A DNA stretch of 57,827 nucleotides. Source: Capnocytophaga sp. oral taxon 863 str. F0517. GTDB taxonomy: Bacteria > Bacteroidota > Bacteroidia > Flavobacteriales > Flavobacteriaceae. The position numbers were made by a program, and so were the translations under genes. The stretch lies in contig NZ_KE992087.1 of NCBI RefSeq assembly GCF_000466425.1, positions 49,721 through 107,547 of the forward strand, in the 5' to 3' direction. The notes below the pieces were generated by a model. That model worked only from the letters and a program-made list of their open reading frames with translations. It made no database searches and was not told the origin of the DNA. The first letter of the stretch is position 1, and each line of letters begins with the position of its first letter. Shown in pieces: positions 14,090 to 23,869 of the stretch.

Positions 14090-14761
14090 TTAGCTCATCA
14101 ACTCCAAAAGCTGTTTCCATCTCCGCCAATCTGGCATAAAGGATTCCAATAAACGGTAGAATGCTCCACTATGGTTATAATGTACCAAATGACAGAGTTC
14201 ATGTAATATCACATAGATAATGCAGGATACAGGAGCTTTGATAAGCTCCTCATTTAGAATAATCTTTCCTCCAGTAGTACAACTCCCCCAACGCTTTTCG
14301 ATAGATTTTATAACTAAGGTAGGTTTCTCTAACTGAAATCTATTGAATAAAAAAAACTGTTGCGAGAAAAGTTGACTCAAAACAATCTTTGCTCTTGTGC
14401 GATACCATGTTTGCAATAGTGCTTTTACTTGTTCTGAAGAGGGATTAAGCGTTTTTACTACCAATCGCCCCTGATAGAATTTCACTACCTCTTCTTCAGA
14501 TTCCTCTACTCTTAGCATATATTGCCTACCTAAATACAGAAAAGTCTCCCCTCCCACATATTGGCGAGGAGGGAGCTTAGGTAGATAAGTCTCAAAGATC
14601 GCTTGCTGTTTTTTGATCCATCTGCTTTTAGCTTCCACATGAAGTGCTATCACCTCTAAAGGGGTATCTATAGGAGCAAATACCTTTACTGAAGTATCAG
14701 GATAGACCTTTATACCTAAGGTTTTCCTATCTGTATAAAAAAGTTCGTAGTGAGTGCTCAT
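14090..14761 (-). CDS. YgjP/DUF45 family zinc metallopeptidase
   Basis: A 223-residue protein of the YgjP-type (WLM/DUF45) metallopeptidases. The zinc site H187-E188-L-C-H191 is followed by the third ligand H197 in HYNHSGAFYRLL, and the preceding RWGSCTTGGKIILN is the family hallmark. Such genes often close type I restriction operons, next to hsdR, but their part in restriction is not known. Its start codon overlaps the hsdR stop codon (TAATG), so it is translated from the same mRNA. Confidence 0.88.
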   Translation of the reverse strand: MSTHYELFYTDRKTLGIKVYPDTSVKVFAPIDTPLEVIALHVEAKSRWIKKQQAIFETYLPKLPPRQYVGGETFLYLGRQYMLRVEESEEEVVKFYQGRLVVKTLNPSSEQVKALLQTWYRTRAKIVLSQLFSQQFFLFNRFQLEKPTLVIKSIEKRWGSCTTGGKIILNEELIKAPVSCIIYVILHELCHLVHYNHSGAFYRLLESFMPDWRRWKQLLELMS

Positions 14762-17700
14762 TATCCTATTTGTTTACTTACTTTTACGATTTCTTCTATA
14801 ATGGTATCTACTATATCAAAAGAGATTTCTACACCCTGCTGTTGTTTTAGCTGGTAGAAAAAATCGTCTATAGTTTGTGCTATTTCGCTTACCAATAAAC
14901 TGTTTTGTTGCCAATCTACAATAGGGGTACCCTCTTCGTAGATAATGTGGTTGATAAGCAAATCTAACTGCAAAGCCCATTCTACCTTTTGAACAGTATT
15001 AGGCAAGGTATCAAGAGTTTTAAGATGTTCGCCTAAGAGGTTATAGAAAGCAGTAGCTTTTTTATTTCCTATCAAAGCTTCTGGTAAATCGGATTGTGTT
15101 CCTTCAAAAAACTGTTTTTCATAATCTCTCACCCTGTTGAAATACTCCAATTCGTCTATGCGTTTTTGCCGATAAGCTTCAATGGTTTGCCTGATAAGGG
15201 TAGAGAGTTTTTGATAAAAAACAGGGTCTTCATCCATCTTTATACTGATAGCCTTCTCGGTACGCGAAGCGATATGGTCGGCTTTGGAGGCATGCCCTTT
15301 AATTTCTTCTAAAGCTTTGTCTCGCGCTTCTTTGTCAAACAAATCTATCTTTTCAGTGATTTGTAAAAAATCCCCATCGGTAATGATATGTTTATCAATC
15401 AGTTTCTTTATTTGCTTTTCGTATTCGGTATAATCAATCGTGTCAAAATAACGACGTGCTACATCGGTGCGCAAGGAGAGGAAGAACTTCAAATCTTTTT
15501 GATAACGCTCTATAGTAGGTGCATTCTCAGGTGTACCAAACTCCACTAACGAAAAGGCTAACTTCAGCATACGTGCAAAAAGGGAAAACCGTTCATAAAA
15601 TGTTTCTCTTTTTTCTTTGTCTGATAATAGTTCCGCGTATGCTTCGGTATCGTATTTATTTTTTATGGTTTTGAAAATATCCCACAACTGCGAGTGTAGT
15701 TGCGGTAGCTTTTCAATTTCTTTAGCAGCATTGGTAACAGTTCCCTTGAGATCGTCTGCCTCAAAATCTTCCCAAGAACCATACATTTCAATGGCTTTAT
15801 CAAGGTTTTCCAAGTTGCCATAATAATCTACTATAAGTCCATAATCCTTACCCTCTTTCACACGGTTTACACGTGCAATCGCTTGCAAAAGGGTATGCTC
15901 TTTGAGACCACGGGTCAGATACATGACCTTTACAATAGGAGCATCAAAACCTGTGAGGAGTTTATCTACCACAATCAATAATTCAGGCTCTTCTCGATCT
16001 CTAAATCCATTGATAAGGCTATCTTCATATTTTTGCGGAGAGCCATAGATGTCCATCATAGCTTTGTAAAAAGAGCCTACTTTATAATCATCTTCTTCTA
16101 AGAGATCGTCATTATTCTCTCTCATATCAGGGGCAGAAATCAGCACTTCACAATTAAGTTTGCATTCTTTCTCTAGATAGTATTGGTATCTTATGGCTGC
16201 GGTTTTACTGAGGGTTACTAGCATTGCTTTAAAACCTTCATTTTGTACATTGTTTTTAAAGTGTTCTGCTATATCCCAAGCACGCGCCTGAATAATCTGG
16301 TCGGCATCATTGAGCTGGGCAATACTGTTTACCTTGCGTTTTAAGCTTGCTTTGCCATAATCATTAAGAGGATCAGAGACACGATTAAAATAGTTGTCTA
16401 AGGGTTTTTCATTCAGATCATATTGGTTGTGCCTACCTTCATAGAGGATCGGTACTATTGCTCCATCGGCCACCGCATCGGTAATCGTATAGGGGGTACC
16501 AATAATACCTCCGAACTTAGCCGCTGTGTTTTTCTCTTTTTTCATCAGGGGGGTACCTGTGAAAGCAATAAAGCAAGCCTTGGGGAATACTTGTTGCATT
16601 TTTATTCCTAAACTGCCATATTGGGTACGATGAGCTTCGTCTATCAGTACAAATATCTCCGATGAGGTAAGCGCTTTTTTTAATTGATTTACTACAGTTT
16701 CAAACTTGTGAATGGTCGTAGTAATCACTCTATCTGTACGTTCTCTTAGCAGTTCTGTAAGGTTAGTGCCTGTAGAGGCTTTCACCACAGGTAGGTTACA
16801 TTTTTTGAAGGTCTCACTTATTTGTTTATCAAGATCCGTGCGATCCGTTACTAATAACAATTTAGGGTGCTTAATGTTCTTATCCACAGCCAAAAGTTGT
16901 GCCAGCATGACCATAGTTAGTGATTTACCACTCCCCTGAGTATGCCAGATAACCCCTCCTGTACGCTTACCATTTTCTATATGCTTTACCCTTGCTAAGG
17001 TGTCCTCCACGGCAAAAAACTGTTGATAACGAGCTATCTTCTTGATATGATTATCAAAAATAGTATAGTACTGCATAAGGCGCAACAAACGGTCTTTGCG
17101 ACAAAGGTAATAAAGCAAAAGGTCTTGCTCGACAAGTAGCACCTCCTCCTGTGCTCTTTGATGAAAAAAATCTTGAATTTCCTTGTTGTGTTTTGCAAAA
17201 AGAGCCTCCTGTTCCTTTCTAGGCAGAGGTTTATTTTTAAGCTCCTTCAGTTGCTCCATTACTTGTGCTTGCACTTCTTGGCTACCAAAGAGTTCACGCC
17301 ATACTTGCCAGTATTTTAGGGGGGTCGCTGTAGTAGCATAACGAGCTTCATTCACTGACAAAGCCAACAGTAGCTGTGAATATTGGTACAGCTCGCGTAT
17401 GCCATCGTCTTTCTGGTTGCGCAAGTGCTGCGAAATGGCCTCTGTGATAGGATTTTTTATCACATTGCTTTTACACTCTATGACTACTATAGGAATACCA
17501 TTGATAAAAAGTACAATATCAGGTCGGTAATAATCATTACGGGCAGTACGTGTTACCTGAAATTCTTCACTTACATGAAAGACATTGTTCTCTGGGACTT
17601 CCCAATCTATATACCGAAAAGAATAACTTTTCTTGCTACCACCGATAGTTTGCTCAAAGGATTTACCAAGGGTAAGCAGATCATACACTTGTTGACTTAC

Positions 17701-17967
17701 CGCCATAAAGCCCTCCTGAGTGGGGAGTTCTTTGAGAGCTGCCACTGCCGCATGGATATTCTCTGCTGAAAAATCATAGTCTTTCCCGCGGTAGTGAATA
17801 CGGTTTATCTTGGTAAGTTGCGCCTTGAGGATAGGTTCCAGCAGTACATTACTATACTTATTAGCCCGCATAGCCAAAGCTTCTTCGGGCGACAGGTATT
17901 GATAGCCCATATTTATTAGGAGTTGCAGAGCGGGTATTTGCGATATGATTTCTTCTCGGTAGTGCAT
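14761..17967 (-). CDS. hsdR: Type I restriction enzyme, R subunit
   Basis: A 1068-residue motor and nuclease subunit. The N-terminal nuclease motif is complete (D150 in YRPDIVLF, then E164-C-K166). The SF2 translocase follows: Walker A TQGSGKSL (343-350), the DRTDLD block, DEAH (443-446), and later helicase motifs (LLTGFDAP, ARVNRVKEGKDYG). The C-terminal helical region binds HsdM. It cuts unmodified DNA after translocation, with HsdM and HsdS. It is 12 bp from the SIR2 gene and overlaps the metallopeptidase gene. No frameshift is seen, so restriction should be active. Confidence 0.96.
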   Translation of the reverse strand: MHYREEIISQIPALQLLINMGYQYLSPEEALAMRANKYSNVLLEPILKAQLTKINRIHYRGKDYDFSAENIHAAVAALKELPTQEGFMAVSQQVYDLLTLGKSFEQTIGGSKKSYSFRYIDWEVPENNVFHVSEEFQVTRTARNDYYRPDIVLFINGIPIVVIECKSNVIKNPITEAISQHLRNQKDDGIRELYQYSQLLLALSVNEARYATTATPLKYWQVWRELFGSQEVQAQVMEQLKELKNKPLPRKEQEALFAKHNKEIQDFFHQRAQEEVLLVEQDLLLYYLCRKDRLLRLMQYYTIFDNHIKKIARYQQFFAVEDTLARVKHIENGKRTGGVIWHTQGSGKSLTMVMLAQLLAVDKNIKHPKLLLVTDRTDLDKQISETFKKCNLPVVKASTGTNLTELLRERTDRVITTTIHKFETVVNQLKKALTSSEIFVLIDEAHRTQYGSLGIKMQQVFPKACFIAFTGTPLMKKEKNTAAKFGGIIGTPYTITDAVADGAIVPILYEGRHNQYDLNEKPLDNYFNRVSDPLNDYGKASLKRKVNSIAQLNDADQIIQARAWDIAEHFKNNVQNEGFKAMLVTLSKTAAIRYQYYLEKECKLNCEVLISAPDMRENNDDLLEEDDYKVGSFYKAMMDIYGSPQKYEDSLINGFRDREEPELLIVVDKLLTGFDAPIVKVMYLTRGLKEHTLLQAIARVNRVKEGKDYGLIVDYYGNLENLDKAIEMYGSWEDFEADDLKGTVTNAAKEIEKLPQLHSQLWDIFKTIKNKYDTEAYAELLSDKEKRETFYERFSLFARMLKLAFSLVEFGTPENAPTIERYQKDLKFFLSLRTDVARRYFDTIDYTEYEKQIKKLIDKHIITDGDFLQITEKIDLFDKEARDKALEEIKGHASKADHIASRTEKAISIKMDEDPVFYQKLSTLIRQTIEAYRQKRIDELEYFNRVRDYEKQFFEGTQSDLPEALIGNKKATAFYNLLGEHLKTLDTLPNTVQKVEWALQLDLLINHIIYEEGTPIVDWQQNSLLVSEIAQTIDDFFYQLKQQQGVEISFDIVDTIIEEIVKVSKQIG

Positions 17968-17979
17968 AAAGATTAAATT

Positions 17980-19314
17980 TTAGCTGTTGAGTAGTTTGTC
18001 TATATCTATATCAGTAGCTATTGCTTTAATAAGTCTGATATTATTTTTTTTTAAAGCTTCTTTTCCCTGTACAAGAACTCTGTCAAACTGATTTGCAGGG
18101 ATTTCAAATATTTTTTCTATTCTACTTTTAAAGTACTCAGTAGTAGCTTCTGGAACTATGATGTCTATTTTCTTGTTAAAATGCAGATTTCTTAAAATAT
18201 CATTGAAATGTTCGTCAGCACTATTGAAAGAATAGCCCACAATAACTATGTGTTCAGCCTCTTGAACCCATTCTGAAGCTTTAGCCCAGAGCTCAATGTA
18301 TTTGTAAGAGAGTATGGGTTTTAGTCTCAAAGGCGGAACTAAAGAAGGAATGATATGTATTTGTTCTTCAATATTATTGTTGGTTACATCAATAGAAGGT
18401 TTGATAGTGGAGTGTAAAAACTCACTCACATTTAAGTGGTTTAGATCCTCTATTGGCAATAGATTTCTCGTATCCATTCTTACATATTCAGCAAGTCCTC
18501 CATGAAAATAGATAACATTTTCCTTGCCTAATTGATTCTCTAAAAAGGAAGTATAGTTGAGAGTGATAGCTCTTAAAGATGTTGGTAATTTTCCATAGAA
18601 AGGCATTTTAGCATTCCTTTTCTTGGAAAGTGCCTCTAGTACTTCTTTCTGCTTAAATACAAGATAAGCCCACAGTACCCAAGAAATATATATGTAGCTC
18701 TTAATATCAGCACTTTTATTGTTATAGAAACCTAAGAATTTTTCTATTAAAAGAAGTTCAATATTTAGCATTTCTGCCCCTAAAGCTTCTGCTACAGCGT
18801 GAGATTTACCTTCAAGGCCTAATCTTAGTGTAATTTTAAGAATTTCTTTAAAAGTATCAGATAATGAAAGCTTGTGAATGTCTAAGATAGAATCACTATC
18901 AATCAAATCATCAGCTTTGTTAGGAAAAACTTCACGAATTAAATTCTCAATTTCCTCATCTAAATTGCTGTTTTCAGCAATAGTAACTAATTTGTTAAAA
19001 AGCCTAATGATTAGCATTCCGTGCTTGTAGATTCTATCATCTTCACTTAATCCTTTTATAGCCTCTTGAACACGTTTAACCATTTTCCTTTGTTCGTCTG
19101 GCTCTCTGGTTACAATTTTATCAACAGCTGTCTTTATCATACTGTTGAAGCTAAATCTCATATTAGGAAGCATTTCTCTTAATACTTCATCAATACGTTT
19201 TCCTTCTTCTGTCTTTAGAAAACCAGTTATTCCGCCTAACAAAGTGTTTGCTAAGGGAAAATCAATACCTTTGGAGCGGTCAACTCCTGCTCCTGTAATT
19301 AATAAATGCTTCAT
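17980..19314 (-). CDS. SIR2-family putative NADase inside the type I restriction operon
   Basis: A 444-residue protein with a split SIR2 fold. The N-terminus has the NAD-binding GAG loop (ITGAGVDRSKGIDFP, residues 6-20). A helical insert (about 30-240) follows. Then comes L-N253-Y254, H271 in YFHGGL as candidate catalytic Asn and His, and VGYSFNSADEHF (359-370) as the ribose-binding loop. SIR2 proteins of this type act as NAD-degrading effectors in several anti-phage systems. It sits between hsdS and hsdR with gaps of 8 and 12 bp on the same strand, so it should be made with the restriction enzyme. No transmembrane helix or sensor domain is visible. Confidence 0.8.
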   Translation of the reverse strand: MKHLLITGAGVDRSKGIDFPLANTLLGGITGFLKTEEGKRIDEVLREMLPNMRFSFNSMIKTAVDKIVTREPDEQRKMVKRVQEAIKGLSEDDRIYKHGMLIIRLFNKLVTIAENSNLDEEIENLIREVFPNKADDLIDSDSILDIHKLSLSDTFKEILKITLRLGLEGKSHAVAEALGAEMLNIELLLIEKFLGFYNNKSADIKSYIYISWVLWAYLVFKQKEVLEALSKKRNAKMPFYGKLPTSLRAITLNYTSFLENQLGKENVIYFHGGLAEYVRMDTRNLLPIEDLNHLNVSEFLHSTIKPSIDVTNNNIEEQIHIIPSLVPPLRLKPILSYKYIELWAKASEWVQEAEHIVIVGYSFNSADEHFNDILRNLHFNKKIDIIVPEATTEYFKSRIEKIFEIPANQFDRVLVQGKEALKKNNIRLIKAIATDIDIDKLLNS

Positions 19315-19322
19315 ATTTCTTT

Positions 19323-20495
19323 TTATTTTATTGTTAAAACTTCTCCAGTAAGCAACTTTTGCATCAGTGTTTTCTTTTGAGCTTGCAAGAGTTGTAGTTT
19401 TTGTTCGTATAGCTTGAGCTCTTGATGGGCAGTATCAAGAATTTTTGTAATTTTTTTTTGTTTTTCGATATTAGGAATAAAAAATTCCATTTCAGAAAGA
19501 GCTTTAAAAGACAATGTATCTCTTACACTTCCTTGTACATATGTAGGTATACGAACTAAAAAACTATTTGATTTTAGATGATAGTATAAGAATTTAGATG
19601 ATAAATAGTCTTTTTTAGTTTCAAAAACTATGTACATAGGGCTTAATATGCCTATTTCTGAATCTTGTAGTAAATCTATAGAGCCTACATTTACTCTTGA
19701 AGGATTGTATGCAAATTGTCCTTTACTTACTATTTTATAATTAGAAACATCAGAACTAGCTAATTCCCTTCCAAATTGCTCAAATTGATTAATAAAACCT
19801 TTGCTATTTGTAACAGATAGTACTTTTTTTACTTGGAGATTAGAATTTCTATTGGATATTTCTTTTATATATTTCCCAATAGTTTTATAATTACTTTTCT
19901 CTCCCGTTAGCAACTGTTGGGCAAGCCCTTGGTTGCGCTGTTTTAGCTGGGTGATAATTTGGGTGGTAAGGCGAATAGCTTTATCACAAGTAAGTAGTAT
20001 CTCGGCTATCTTTTCTTGCTCTTTTAATGGGGGAAGAGGAAGTTTTAGCATTTCTAATTGAGATGAATATATATGAACTACCGAATGTCCTTGTCCCATA
20101 CTAAACTTTTGTTTTTTGGCAATATCAGAATTTAATAGATAAGACATTACAATTGGGTTTTGTTCGGTTCTAAACACTATAATATCTCCTCCTGCATATC
20201 CTATTTCATCATCAATAAAAGTAGCACACTTCCCAATGTCTTCTAAGGTTTCGCCAGAGCCTGCAAAACAAATATCTCCATATCTTATTTCTTGACTTAT
20301 AAGAGCTGTTTCTTTATCAATGAATGATTTTACACCTTCTATTACAAAATTGTACTTAGTATATAAGTCTCCATAAGTTAAACATTTGAAACCTGTATCT
20401 GTAATTTTATTTTTGGGTACACCTTTCCCTTTAAAGAAAATACCTATCTCTCCTAACTTCTTTATTTTCCAATGTTTGGGTATATTTGTTATCAT
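19323..20495 (-). CDS. hsdS: Type I restriction enzyme, S subunit (two target domains)
   Basis: A 390-residue specificity subunit with two target recognition domains. Each is followed by a helical spacer: EKIAEILLTCDKAIRLTTQIITQLKQR ends the first, KKITKILDTAHQELKLYEQKLQLL the second. The motif LLTGE occurs at the end of both spacers (about residues 193-197 and 382-386), the usual conserved repeats. It determines the bipartite DNA target of the HsdM and HsdR subunits. The start overlaps the Fic stop by 4 bp (ATGA). The recognition sequence cannot be read from the protein. Confidence 0.92.
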   Translation of the reverse strand: MITNIPKHWKIKKLGEIGIFFKGKGVPKNKITDTGFKCLTYGDLYTKYNFVIEGVKSFIDKETALISQEIRYGDICFAGSGETLEDIGKCATFIDDEIGYAGGDIIVFRTEQNPIVMSYLLNSDIAKKQKFSMGQGHSVVHIYSSQLEMLKLPLPPLKEQEKIAEILLTCDKAIRLTTQIITQLKQRNQGLAQQLLTGEKSNYKTIGKYIKEISNRNSNLQVKKVLSVTNSKGFINQFEQFGRELASSDVSNYKIVSKGQFAYNPSRVNVGSIDLLQDSEIGILSPMYIVFETKKDYLSSKFLYYHLKSNSFLVRIPTYVQGSVRDTLSFKALSEMEFFIPNIEKQKKITKILDTAHQELKLYEQKLQLLQAQKKTLMQKLLTGEVLTIK

Positions 20496-21778
20496 ACTTC
20501 TTTTACTTTTGCTAATAGTTTCTTGCCTAATTGTTGGGGTAAAATGCTTATACGCTCATCATCTGGAAAAGTGCCATAAGGATAGCTCTCTTTAAAAAGC
20601 TCACTGTCTACTATTTTTATACTTAACTCATAATGTTTTTCTTGAAACTGTATTTCTATAGTAGTCTTAAAAAGAGTATCATTTTCTATATAATATCTTT
20701 GGTTTAAACAATACTCATATGTAAGAGAATCCACCTCTTTAGGCAGTTCAATCAAAGTGCTGAAATCAACTTGAATATCATTAAGGCATTCTATTTTTTT
20801 CTTCTCCTGAAATAGTTTGTCAAACTTTTGCAATACAGCTTCACAAGGGGCTATGAGCTTTTGCTGTGCCCATTGAAAAACGTTTAGCACTTGTTGAGGG
20901 GTTTTGTAAGCCTCTTGGTGTTGTAGCTGTCGAGCAAGGAGTGCAATTTCTTTGTCTAAATCATCAGGCTCTTCTATACTTTCGCCTTTAGCTGCTTTGA
21001 TTGCCATTTCCAAGCTACTCACTACTTGTTCTGCTATATAGCGTATAAAGGATTCGTATTGTCCTGTATCAGCTAAGTGGAGTGCGTGCAAATAGTTCTG
21101 TTTGTCACTTGATTTGATAACCACTGGGGGCAACTTATGTGCTAAAAGTACGTAATTCATTAGCAAACGCGATACGCGTCCGTTACCATCGTCAAAAGGA
21201 TGAATACACACAAATTTGTAATGAAACATAGCCGCAAGGGTTACAGGGTGCAAAGCGGTTTGCTCATCGCGATACCACTCCATAAGTTCTTGCATCTGTA
21301 TAGGTACTTCTTGTGGAGCGGTGTATTCAAACAGCTCTCCATTGGGCAAGCGTACCGAATTGGGTTGGGTCTTATAGCTCCCTACCATTATTTGCCGGCG
21401 GGTGGGGTGCCCATCGGGGGTAATAGCGTTTTTCCAAAAAGGCTGTACGAGAATAATTTGATTAAGCTCCCTAATATCCTTTTCCGTAAGAGGCATCTGT
21501 GTGTCAGCTGCCCATTCTTTTATTTTCTGAAAGGCTACATCGTGGGCTTTCATTTCTTCATAGTCTCTCATGGGGTGGCTCCCATGGGTTTCATCAAAGA
21601 GTAATAGCAATTGAGTATCTCCATAAGTAAGCGTATTTCCCTCTATATGGTTAGAATTATAATTGTACTCCAACCGTACTTTTTTATCCCATCGGCGCTG
21701 GTTCTCAGGGCTCATAGGAAGTAGGCTATGGTAGGTAGCCGAAAGTTGGTCTATATAGTTTAAAATATCTGTTGTCAT
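20492..21778 (-). CDS. Fic domain protein with N-terminal inhibitory motif
   Basis: A 428-residue Fic protein. The catalytic loop HPFDDGNGR (193-201) is complete, with His193 as the base. An inhibitory helix motif S42-x3-E46-G47 in NSNHIEGN lies near the N-terminus, typical of self-inhibited class II Fic enzymes. The C-terminal part (about 290-428) is likely a target-binding or winged-helix region. Fic enzymes attach AMP or other nucleotides to proteins. The gene overlaps hsdM at its start (TAATG) and hsdS at its end, so it belongs to the operon. Fic genes inside type I operons recur in other bacteria; whether it acts on the Hsd proteins is unknown. Confidence 0.9.
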   Translation of the reverse strand: MTTDILNYIDQLSATYHSLLPMSPENQRRWDKKVRLEYNYNSNHIEGNTLTYGDTQLLLLFDETHGSHPMRDYEEMKAHDVAFQKIKEWAADTQMPLTEKDIRELNQIILVQPFWKNAITPDGHPTRRQIMVGSYKTQPNSVRLPNGELFEYTAPQEVPIQMQELMEWYRDEQTALHPVTLAAMFHYKFVCIHPFDDGNGRVSRLLMNYVLLAHKLPPVVIKSSDKQNYLHALHLADTGQYESFIRYIAEQVVSSLEMAIKAAKGESIEEPDDLDKEIALLARQLQHQEAYKTPQQVLNVFQWAQQKLIAPCEAVLQKFDKLFQEKKKIECLNDIQVDFSTLIELPKEVDSLTYEYCLNQRYYIENDTLFKTTIEIQFQEKHYELSIKIVDSELFKESYPYGTFPDDERISILPQQLGKKLLAKVKEV

Positions 21779-23310
21779 TACACAAGGTTTAATTCTTTTA
21801 AATATTGTTCTATTTGTTGCTCTACTTGGCTGAGCTCTTGTTTTAGTTGTCCCAGCTCACTATGTACAGTAGCTATGTCTACCAAAGTTTCTGGCTCAAA
21901 AGTATCTACATAGCGTGGAATGTTTAGGTTGTAGTCATTAGTTTGTATCTCTGCTAAAGTAGCTCGATAGGCAAAACGTTCTTCTATTACACTGCCTTTT
22001 TTACCGTTAATGGGCTTAGCTTTTTTGTAGTTCTGATATACCGAAACAATATGGCTAATGTCCTCATCACGCAAATGGTTTTGATTTTTGCCACTTTCAT
22101 AAGCCTTGCTCGCATCTATAAAAAGTACATCAGTATTAGCTCCTTTTGCTCGGTTGAAAATCAGGATAGCCGCCGGAATACTGGTGCCGTAGAATAGGTT
22201 GGCAGGCAAGCCTATTACCGCTTCTAACAGGTTCTCCTCTATGAGTTGTTGCCTAATAATTTTCTCGGAGCTACCACGAAAGAGTACCCCGTGAGGCACA
22301 ATCACTCCCACCCGTCCGTTAGTCTCGTGGGTGGTCTCAATCATATGGCTAATAAAGGCATAATCTCCTTTAGTTTTAGGAGGGATGCCGCGATGAAAAC
22401 GTTGGTAAGGATCAGCAGCTGCATTTTCAGCCCCCCATTTATCTAACGAAAAAGGAGGATTGGCTACCACCACATCAAATTTCATCAGCGCATCATTTTC
22501 TATCAATTGGGGGTGATTCAGGGTGTCGCCCCAAGTGATGGTTGCCGCATCTTGTTCATGCAAGAACATATTCATCAGGCATAGTGCCCAAGTACTACCG
22601 TTATTTTCCTGCCCGTAAAGTGAATAGTTTTTGCCTTGTACTTCTTTAGCTACTTTTATCAGGAGTGAACCCGAACCACAAGCGGGGTCGGCAATGCGGT
22701 CGCCTGCCTTAGGAACTACCAATTTAGCCAAGAGGGTACTCACCTCTGAAGGAGTATAGAACTCGCCAGCCTTTTTACCCGCTTCACCAGCAAAGTGAGC
22801 GATGAGGTATTCGTAACTATCACCTATCACATCGTTACCTGCAAGATGTGAGGGTTTAAGGTCTAAATTGAGGAAGTCAGTAAGGAGTTTTTTGAGTATC
22901 TCGTTGCGTTGCTTGGTAGGGCCAAAAACAGCTTCTGAATTGAAAGAGATACTGCGGAATACATTGGTTAGCTTGCTGCGATTGGCTTCTTCCAAAGCGG
23001 TAAGCCCTATATCTATCACTTCGCCTAAATTGGACTCGTTACGATGGTCGTACAAATAGTCAAAAGTACTTTTTTCAGGAATGACAAAACGGTCTTTCTG
23101 TAACTGCCTATCTATCATGGTCTCATTCCCTTTGTATCTTTCCTTATAAAGAGCCTCCTTTTCCTTACGTACATCCGAGAGGTATTTTACAAAAAGTAAG
23201 GTAAGGATATAATCCTTATACTGACCACTTCCCATGACAGGGCGCAGCGTATCACATGCTTTCCATACTATACTGTTAATAATGTCCCTCGTTATCTTGT
23301 TATCTTCCAT
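21778..23310 (-). CDS. hsdM: Type I restriction-modification, M subunit
   Basis: A 510-residue N6-adenine methyltransferase. The N-terminal helical HsdM domain (about 10-160) is followed by the Rossmann core: FYTP (184-187), AdoMet motif ADPACGSGSLL (207-217), and catalytic NPPF (284-287). It methylates the target named by HsdS and is also part of the restriction complex. It starts 4 bp after the half-HsdS gene and overlaps the Fic start by 1 base. Length is normal for the family. Confidence 0.96.
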   Translation of the reverse strand: MEDNKITRDIINSIVWKACDTLRPVMGSGQYKDYILTLLFVKYLSDVRKEKEALYKERYKGNETMIDRQLQKDRFVIPEKSTFDYLYDHRNESNLGEVIDIGLTALEEANRSKLTNVFRSISFNSEAVFGPTKQRNEILKKLLTDFLNLDLKPSHLAGNDVIGDSYEYLIAHFAGEAGKKAGEFYTPSEVSTLLAKLVVPKAGDRIADPACGSGSLLIKVAKEVQGKNYSLYGQENNGSTWALCLMNMFLHEQDAATITWGDTLNHPQLIENDALMKFDVVVANPPFSLDKWGAENAAADPYQRFHRGIPPKTKGDYAFISHMIETTHETNGRVGVIVPHGVLFRGSSEKIIRQQLIEENLLEAVIGLPANLFYGTSIPAAILIFNRAKGANTDVLFIDASKAYESGKNQNHLRDEDISHIVSVYQNYKKAKPINGKKGSVIEERFAYRATLAEIQTNDYNLNIPRYVDTFEPETLVDIATVHSELGQLKQELSQVEQQIEQYLKELNLV

Positions 23311-23314
23311 TGTA

Positions 23315-23869
23315 TTATGATATTAATTTATGAATAATAGATTGATATAATTGTCGTTCTTTTTGTATCATCTGTTGTCTTAAAATATTTTTTTGCTGAA
23401 ACAACAGATTTAAATCACTTATTTGTTGTTGTATTTTAGGAGGAGGTAAGGGTATTGGCAAGTCCTCTAACTCCTTTTTCCTTAGTGAAAAAATATTACT
23501 ACCTCCTCCCATTTGCCATAATTGTTGCTGGTATTGAGGCAAATTGAGAATAGTAGCCAAATAAGCAGGCAATACAATTGCTCTGTCGACTCTCAATACA
23601 TAAAAAATAGAGGAAGCCACAGCTTTACCCCATTGCGCTCGAAACAAAGTAGCAAAAATTCGGGTACCTTTAGAGGGTAATAAAATATCGTCCTCCAAAA
23701 GAAGATTTTTGTTATACTTCTCATCTTCCTCTACAAAGGCATCCACATTTGCCAAAAATTGATTATTTTCGTCAAAATTTTTGAGTTGTAGGTACAAAAT
23801 TTCTCCTTTGGAGAGCGCACTATCATAACAGCCAAAGTCTATTCTACTTAATTCTTTTAAAGGTTTCAT
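23315..23869 (-). CDS. Half-length HsdS-like protein (single target domain)
   Basis: A 184-residue protein that resembles one half of an HsdS: one target recognition domain and one terminal helix. The domain reads DDILLPSKGTRIFATLF, IFYVLRVD, AYLATILNLP, and PIPLPPPKIQQQISDLNLLFQQKN at the start of the coiled spacer. It is the first gene of the operon, 4 bp before hsdM and directly after the promoter. Half-S proteins can pair with themselves to recognise symmetric sites, or could act as an alternative specificity. A relic of a recombined hsdS is also possible, but the frame is intact and well placed. Confidence 0.7.
   Translation of the reverse strand: MKPLKELSRIDFGCYDSALSKGEILYLQLKNFDENNQFLANVDAFVEEDEKYNKNLLLEDDILLPSKGTRIFATLFRAQWGKAVASSIFYVLRVDRAIVLPAYLATILNLPQYQQQLWQMGGGSNIFSLRKKELEDLPIPLPPPKIQQQISDLNLLFQQKNILRQQMIQKERQLYQSIIHKLIS

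Follow-up and report, generated by a model that had tools for sequence, protein, structure and literature searches.

A predicted SIR2-fold gene carried as a single-gene cassette within a Capnocytophaga type I restriction operon and beside other DNA-targeting immune systems

The window analysed in this work is a stretch of 57,827 nucleotides from Capnocytophaga sp. oral taxon 863 str. F0517 (contig NZ_KE992087.1), and the element of interest is a gene for a predicted SIR2-fold protein, which lies within a type I restriction-modification (R-M) operon. The operon is comprised of seven open reading frames (ORFs), all on the minus strand, spanning positions 14090-23869. The first gene encodes a half-HsdS with a single target-recognition domain (184 amino acids (aa), 23315..23869; Methylase_S, 34.8 bits), and it is followed by genes for the type I DNA adenine methyltransferase HsdM (510 aa, 21778..23310; Pfam HsdM_N/N6_Mtase, NCBIfam TIGR00497 above cut-off), a Fic/DOC-family protein (428 aa, 20492..21778; PF02661, 77 bits), the two-domain specificity subunit HsdS (390 aa, 19323..20495; Pfam Methylase_S and PADLOC), the SIR2-fold protein (444 aa, 17980..19314), the type I restriction/translocase subunit HsdR (1068 aa, 14761..17967; HSDR_N/SWI2_SNF2, TIGR00348 above cut-off) and finally a YgjP-like metallopeptidase (223 aa, 14090..14761; PF01863, 186 bits). 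From the first gene to the seventh the junctions consist of a gap of 4 bases, overlaps of 1 base (TAATG) and 4 bases (ATGA), gaps of 8 and 12 bases, and an overlap of 1 base (TAATG); the 8-base gap behind hsdS (19315..19322) and the 12-base gap before hsdR (17968..17979) form the upstream and downstream edges of the SIR2 gene. An initial annotation of this DNA had described seven same-strand genes joined in this manner, and all of its coordinates and junctions were reproduced by our ORF check of the window. Matches above the Pfam cut-off were obtained for six of the seven proteins, the SIR2 protein being the exception. The GC content is 0.327 for the SIR2 gene, 0.306 for hsdS and 0.425 for hsdM. 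The number of promoter-like sites (33, against a mean of 31.8 in shuffled sequences) showed no excess over the shuffles, and 11 terminator-like sites were observed where the shuffles gave 7.4 (standard deviation 2.5).

By sequence, the assignment of the fifth protein to SIR2 is weak, and it is based upon the predicted fold and the motifs of the nicotinamide adenine dinucleotide (NAD) site. The only Pfam match was to AbiH (PF14253), which scored 23 bits against a cut-off of 30.9 and covered residues 242-378 in the C-terminal part; PADLOC returned weak SIR2 models, the best of them Aga_SIR2 (1e-6), and NCBIfam a single match far below its cut-off. However, a Rossmann-type SIR2 fold is present in the predicted structure, and the top rows of the Foldseek search with this model are SIR2-HerA chains. 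The protein contains the motifs GAGVDR (residues 8-13), LNYT (with Asn253) and FHGG (with His271), and in an alignment of 15 sequences, including that from the window, the residues G8, A9, G10, N253 and H271 are invariant (the copy at locus L015, cut at its N-terminus, was scored only at the positions it retains). The Asn253/His271 pair, whose members we take to be the catalytic residues, and the NAD loops are thus kept, in agreement with the initial annotation. Its further statement, that the protein has no sensor domain of its own, is not safe, as the GAG loop and LNYT are separated by a mostly helical region (approximately residues 40-235) whose conservation is similar to that of the remaining protein and which is perhaps a candidate sensing region. 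A zinc-dependent sirtuin deacylase was considered and rejected: the four-cysteine zinc module is lacking, and the proteins from the window and from a second Capnocytophaga locus (L012) contain no cysteine at all. The sole sequence match in the PDB, Trm14 (E 0.084), was taken as a chance match, and a comparison by hhalign of the family profile A2 with two other SIR2 proteins (L049 and L041) gave no confident match.

The behaviour of this gene within Capnocytophaga is seen from a comparison of 20 genomes. Matches to HsdR at E <= 1e-30 were found in six of them, and in three they were close (88-100% identity), viz. the window's own genome, G013 (locus L012, which has the same coordinates in the C. 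periodontitidis record) and G014 (locus L038). The SIR2 gene is absent from G014, where hsdS is followed by hsdR across a 34-base spacer, whereas the operon is otherwise complete, with Fic included. The proteins of L038 and L012 are 99.5% (half-HsdS), 99.0% (HsdM), 97.1% (Fic), 96.9% (HsdS), 96.8% (HsdR) and 95.5% (YgjP) identical, and the two operons occupy the same chromosomal place with the same flanks (88-96% in the aligned flanking blocks). As these near-identical operons differ by the SIR2 gene, this gene is an exchangeable or removable one-gene cassette between hsdS and hsdR, and the operon is kept without it with nearly the same specificity subunit. The description of the SIR2 gene as built into the type I operon thus holds insofar as the gene belongs to an R-M operon, but it is not a fixed part thereof. 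Because the more distant window operon carries the gene, its loss from G014 is no less likely than its gain in L012. The half-HsdS is also present in both of these other Capnocytophaga, where it is 83% identical to that of the window, and it may serve as a spare recognition domain or a regulator.

The synonymous divergence between the window and L012, estimated with our own Nei-Gojobori script, is 0.22 for the SIR2 gene, far below the values for hsdR (0.84), hsdM (0.57), fic (0.52) and the YgjP gene (1.65), which suggests that the SIR2 gene was swapped more recently. This evidence is only suggestive because the identity of the two operons is mosaic, parts of hsdM and fic matching the level of the SIR2 gene. 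The ratio of nonsynonymous to synonymous divergence (dN/dS) for the SIR2 gene is 0.034-0.055 in three pairs of the loci L004, L006 and L013 and 0.22 for the window and L012, values that fit purifying selection. The whole operon (window:14026-24225) looks inserted between UbiA and FtsX. These flanking genes are directly adjacent in two of 19 other Capnocytophaga genomes (G003 and G012; comparison loci L056 and L057), with FtsX in reversed orientation in G012; the short flank available for each of the remaining 17 showed no FtsX, and in G013 and G014 the operon and UbiA are on different contigs.

Counting the window, 17 places hold full-length members of this SIR2 family, which are 38-91% identical to the window protein. 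When genome_contigs (84,980 species) was scanned with six short peptides from this protein, 14 distinct loci at 48-91% identity were recovered, of which 11 belong to Pseudomonadota; one more locus came from plasmids (one of 72,556 records) and one from sampled genomes. Gene neighbours played no part in any of the searches that found these loci. Left out of the count were duplicates (L016, the same as L012; L019-L031, the same as L002-L011 and L013-L015; L001 and L052, the same as the window; L053, the same as L054) and L017, which was too weak (E 4.5e-4 over 58 residues). The family is rare, being present in one of 395 sampled Bacteroidota genomes (the window's own), in two of 399 from the order of G104 (both known before, one of them the centre), in one of 369 from the class of G107 (the centre) and in two of 297 from the phylum of G109 (one of them the centre). 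No match was found in Escherichia coli by a single DNA-level search with the L003 gene. A phage-borne origin of the gene was dropped, as 50,697 phage records gave no match and none of the 24 stretches of viral contigs that fitted a pattern was a relative.

In 15 of the 17 loci the SIR2 gene lies beside or inside an operon for DNA-targeting immunity, and for this reason the neighbourhood is more than chance. Ten of these operons are of type I-like R-M, four of type III R-M and one of type I-C CRISPR-Cas. In 13 of the 17 the SIR2 gene stands directly behind a specificity (S) or restriction (Res) gene on the same strand, with a gap of 2-29 bases in nine of these and an overlap in two (L010 and L015), and with wider gaps in L018 (121 bases) and L054 (340 bases). 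The initial annotation had proposed a search for the SIR2 gene next to hsd genes in other genomes, and the ten type I-like loci bear out such co-occurrence. Apart from the seven-gene operons of the window and L012, they consist of L003 (HsdM, HsdS, SIR2, RhuM-Fic, HsdR), L005 (Fic, HsdM, HsdS, SIR2, a Zeta-toxin-like kinase, HsdR, YgjP), L007 (Mrr, M with HSDR_N_2, S, SIR2), L009 (HsdR, HsdS, PrrC, HsdM, an unknown 366-aa gene, SIR2), L010 (M, S recognised by PADLOC only, SIR2), L011 (Fic, ThsB-like TIR, DUF2726, M, S, SIR2), L018 on a Methylococcus plasmid (HsdR-like helicase, M, S, SIR2) and L054 (HsdR-type helicase, KilA-N, M-S fusion, SIR2). The type III loci are L006 (Mod, Res, SIR2) and L004, L013 and L015, in which part of Res precedes SIR2 (L013 lies at a contig edge, with about 48 codons of the upstream Res frame visible, and the frames of L015 are cut). 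In Cardiobacterium valvarum (L014:7744-18251) the SIR2 gene splits the I-C operon between cas3 and cas5c, and it is followed by cas5c, cas8c, cas7c, cas4, two unknown ORFs without a Pfam match, cas1 and cas2. A search of two stretches near this locus (5.8 and 9.5 kb) found no CRISPR array, and the second held only repeats of the protein-coding type. Of the remaining two copies, that at L002 faces QatABCD and that at L008 (Methylococcus capsulatus Texas) is beside what looks like an integrase remnant.

Several of these loci carry further genes. PrrC at L009 (positions 5772-6905 of L009:1530-11311; PADLOC 2.4e-135) places two suicide-type effectors within one R-M operon. The Zeta-toxin-like kinase of L005 (L005:11351-11872), between the SIR2 gene and hsdR, is a further plug-in in that slot. 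The ThsB-like TIR gene of L011 (L011:4594-5550; PADLOC 1.2e-122) is two genes ahead of the M gene, giving a Thoeris-like pairing of TIR and SIR2 in which a SLOG domain was not recognised.

In a phylogenetic tree of the family, the four type III loci formed one clade (96/99), other loci formed pairs and L014 was on a very long branch; four of the 13 inner branches were well supported. Because several loci are kin, we estimate about eight independent associations with immune operons. As a control, the SIR2_2 family was surveyed; it has 11 loci in seven of 16 genomes, and one of these loci (L041, G000:C92:123196-123558, about 500 aa) is a second SIR2 gene elsewhere in the window's genome. Five loci (L046, L047, L048, L050 and L051) were excluded because of ambiguous reading frames, and among the six assessed (L041-L045 and L049) two had HerA, one a ThsB-type TIR, two neither, and one (L043) HsdS directly upstream. 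At this last locus (L043:1-3416, in G106, the genome of L008) a SIR2_2 open frame of 1334 aa comes directly after, and touches, the HsdS gene. In this small control HsdS thus precedes the SIR2 gene at one locus of six, whereas in the window's family S or Res directly precedes it at 13 of 17, and since L043 shares the arrangement, the position behind hsdS is not peculiar to this family.

The reading that we favour, with a probability of about one half, takes the SIR2 protein for a portable second-line effector, probably NAD+-consuming and growth-arresting, with self-contained sensing. The effector would be carried as a single-gene cassette, mostly behind a specificity or restriction gene, and would be co-expressed with the immune operon; it would be off in healthy cells and would fire in infections that the first line engages but does not halt. 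It may sense its trigger largely alone, perhaps through the conserved helical region, and once activated it would hydrolyse NAD+ and stop the infected cell. The simplest guess for a common trigger is DNA ends or fragments produced by nuclease-translocases, or a phage inhibitor of these enzymes. This reading draws directly upon the predicted SIR2 fold, the invariant NAD-site residues, purifying selection, the cassette behaviour and the linkage to three kinds of immune systems; from these we infer the NADase activity, abortive infection, the sensing part and the trigger. Self-sensing is favoured because the protein sits beside unrelated partners (HsdS/HsdR, Res, Cas3) and yet in most rows is still 63-66% identical to that of the window. 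It is possible, though doubtful, that this one family forms a general fail-safe for type I R-M, type III R-M and I-C CRISPR-Cas, in which one shared signal of first-line failure leads to NAD+ loss; such a signal may be broken DNA or a blocked superfamily 2 translocase (HsdR, Res or Cas3).

A number of observations weigh against the favoured reading. The predicted structure is of middling confidence (predicted local distance difference test 69.3, predicted template modelling score 0.59), Foldseek returned no rows for it at E <= 0.001, and the PDB yielded no relative by sequence. R-M genes were not recognised alongside two of the 17 copies (L002 and L008), and a classical HsdR was not recognised at L007, L010 and L011, although M and S were. 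The copies at L005 and L010 carry an in-frame stop and that at L015 is cut; as the R-M ORFs next to the former two are open, the SIR2 gene is dispensable. The kinship among loci lowers the independence of the linkage seen in 15 of 17, a SIR2_2 gene is likewise found behind hsdS, and the linkage with R-M could be plain clustering in defence islands.

The leading rival, which we consider unlikely, is a latch of the PrrC type, in which the Hsd complex (or Mod-Res, or Cascade/Cas3) holds SIR2 inactive until phage inhibition of the complex frees it, as in the coupling hypothesis put forward in 2012 (PMC3506569). The SIR2 gene occupies the same kind of slot as does prrC in the EcoprrI hsd operon, its junctions with S or Res are tight, and PrrC and SIR2 occur together at L009. 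However, the partners of SIR2 are non-homologous or, outside Capnocytophaga, show a likeness of only 22-40% to the HsdM, HsdS and HsdR of the window, in contrast to the higher identity of SIR2 itself; two copies are without recognised R-M alongside; and the Hsd proteins of L012 and L038, 97-99% identical with and without SIR2, show no large change, for which reason self-sensing is preferred over a subunit latch. Because the cassette is common to type I, type III and CRISPR I-C systems, a signal that several systems share is more probable than the control by these particular Hsd subunits that the initial annotation had suggested. Its other suggestion, that Fic holds SIR2 in check, is unlikely, and Fic as an antitoxin of SIR2 was rejected: G014 has Fic but no SIR2, and with a few, non-exhaustive queries no Fic was recognised near SIR2 at L006, L010, L014 and L018.

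Next comes plain clustering, also improbable in our view, in which SIR2 is an independent abortive-infection gene that gathers with defence genes and gains operon expression without functional coupling. The copies facing QatABCD and at L008, the presence/absence polymorphism in Capnocytophaga, the SIR2_2 gene behind hsdS and the general clustering of defence genes, described in the article of 2012 (PMC3506569), are consistent with it. Against this, 13 of the 17 copies follow S or Res immediately on the same strand and another lies within a cas operon, an arrangement tighter than loose islands, and unlinked copies account for just two of 17. A very improbable alternative is that SIR2 is not a suicide effector but a modifying enzyme, acting as a deacylase or ADP-ribosyltransferase to adjust the restriction enzyme. 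Sirtuins also have a SIR2 fold, the gene shares an operon with R-M genes, and ADP-ribosylation is allowed for such Sir2 proteins in the same article (PMC3506569), but there is no four-cysteine zinc module, HsdMSR, Mod-Res and Cas3/Cascade would all need to be targets of a single protein, and the R-M operon persists without SIR2.

The recurrence of the second-line effector proposed here suggests a shared back-up weapon of DNA-cutting immune systems, and its occurrence in type I R-M, type III R-M and CRISPR I-C alike raises the question of which common signal SIR2 reads. The coupling of immunity with suicide, a hypothesis of 2012 reportedly due to Makarova and colleagues, can be tested directly through a single protein that three kinds of immune systems carry, and the Capnocytophaga pair with and without the gene is a ready natural comparison. 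If such coupling is true, a phage that overcomes restriction incurs a further cost, with consequences for phage-host arms races and for the assembly of defence operons.

Among known systems, SIR2-HerA (Nezha/Gao19), DSR1/DSR2 and Thoeris ThsA resemble the window protein in their SIR2 fold, defence setting and NAD-site Asn and His, but the window protein has no large extra domain and its family neighbours a restriction or CRISPR operon. Pfam gave no match to HerA/DUF87 among the seven proteins of the window operon and none to SLOG or TIR, a ThsB-like TIR gene being present in L011 only. The likeness to AbiH, a stand-alone gene, is weak and below the Pfam cut-off. PrrC of the EcoprrI type Ic operon is, like SIR2, an accessory suicide-type gene in an hsd operon and dispensable for the operon's presence; unlike SIR2 it combines an ABC-NTPase with a tRNA (anticodon) nuclease, and no AAA/ABC or PrrC model matched the window protein in Pfam or PADLOC. 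PrrC itself is kept latent by Hsd until an anti-restriction peptide of the phage releases it. The SIR2 family, in addition, occurs with type III R-M and CRISPR I-C. Judged from sequence comparisons, the family is distinct from PrrC, SIR2-HerA and ThsA, and falls below the AbiH cut-off. In the part available, the 2012 article (PMC3506569) links Sir2 superfamily enzymes to type I R-M, reports toxin-like domains, Sir2 among them, at type I and III R-M loci, names AbiH as a Sir2-superfamily component of abortive infection, describes PrrC as co-located with the hsd operon and kept latent, and proposes that immune components may hold associated toxins; the principle of coupling is therefore not new. 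That part describes no defined family, natural pair with and without the gene, or Sir2 in a CRISPR I-C operon. One SIR2 family spanning type I, type III and CRISPR was not found in the open-access literature searched, which did not extend to bioRxiv. Within that literature, the new elements are a defined family that spans type I R-M, type III R-M and CRISPR I-C, a natural pair of operons with and without the gene, and a candidate sensing region.

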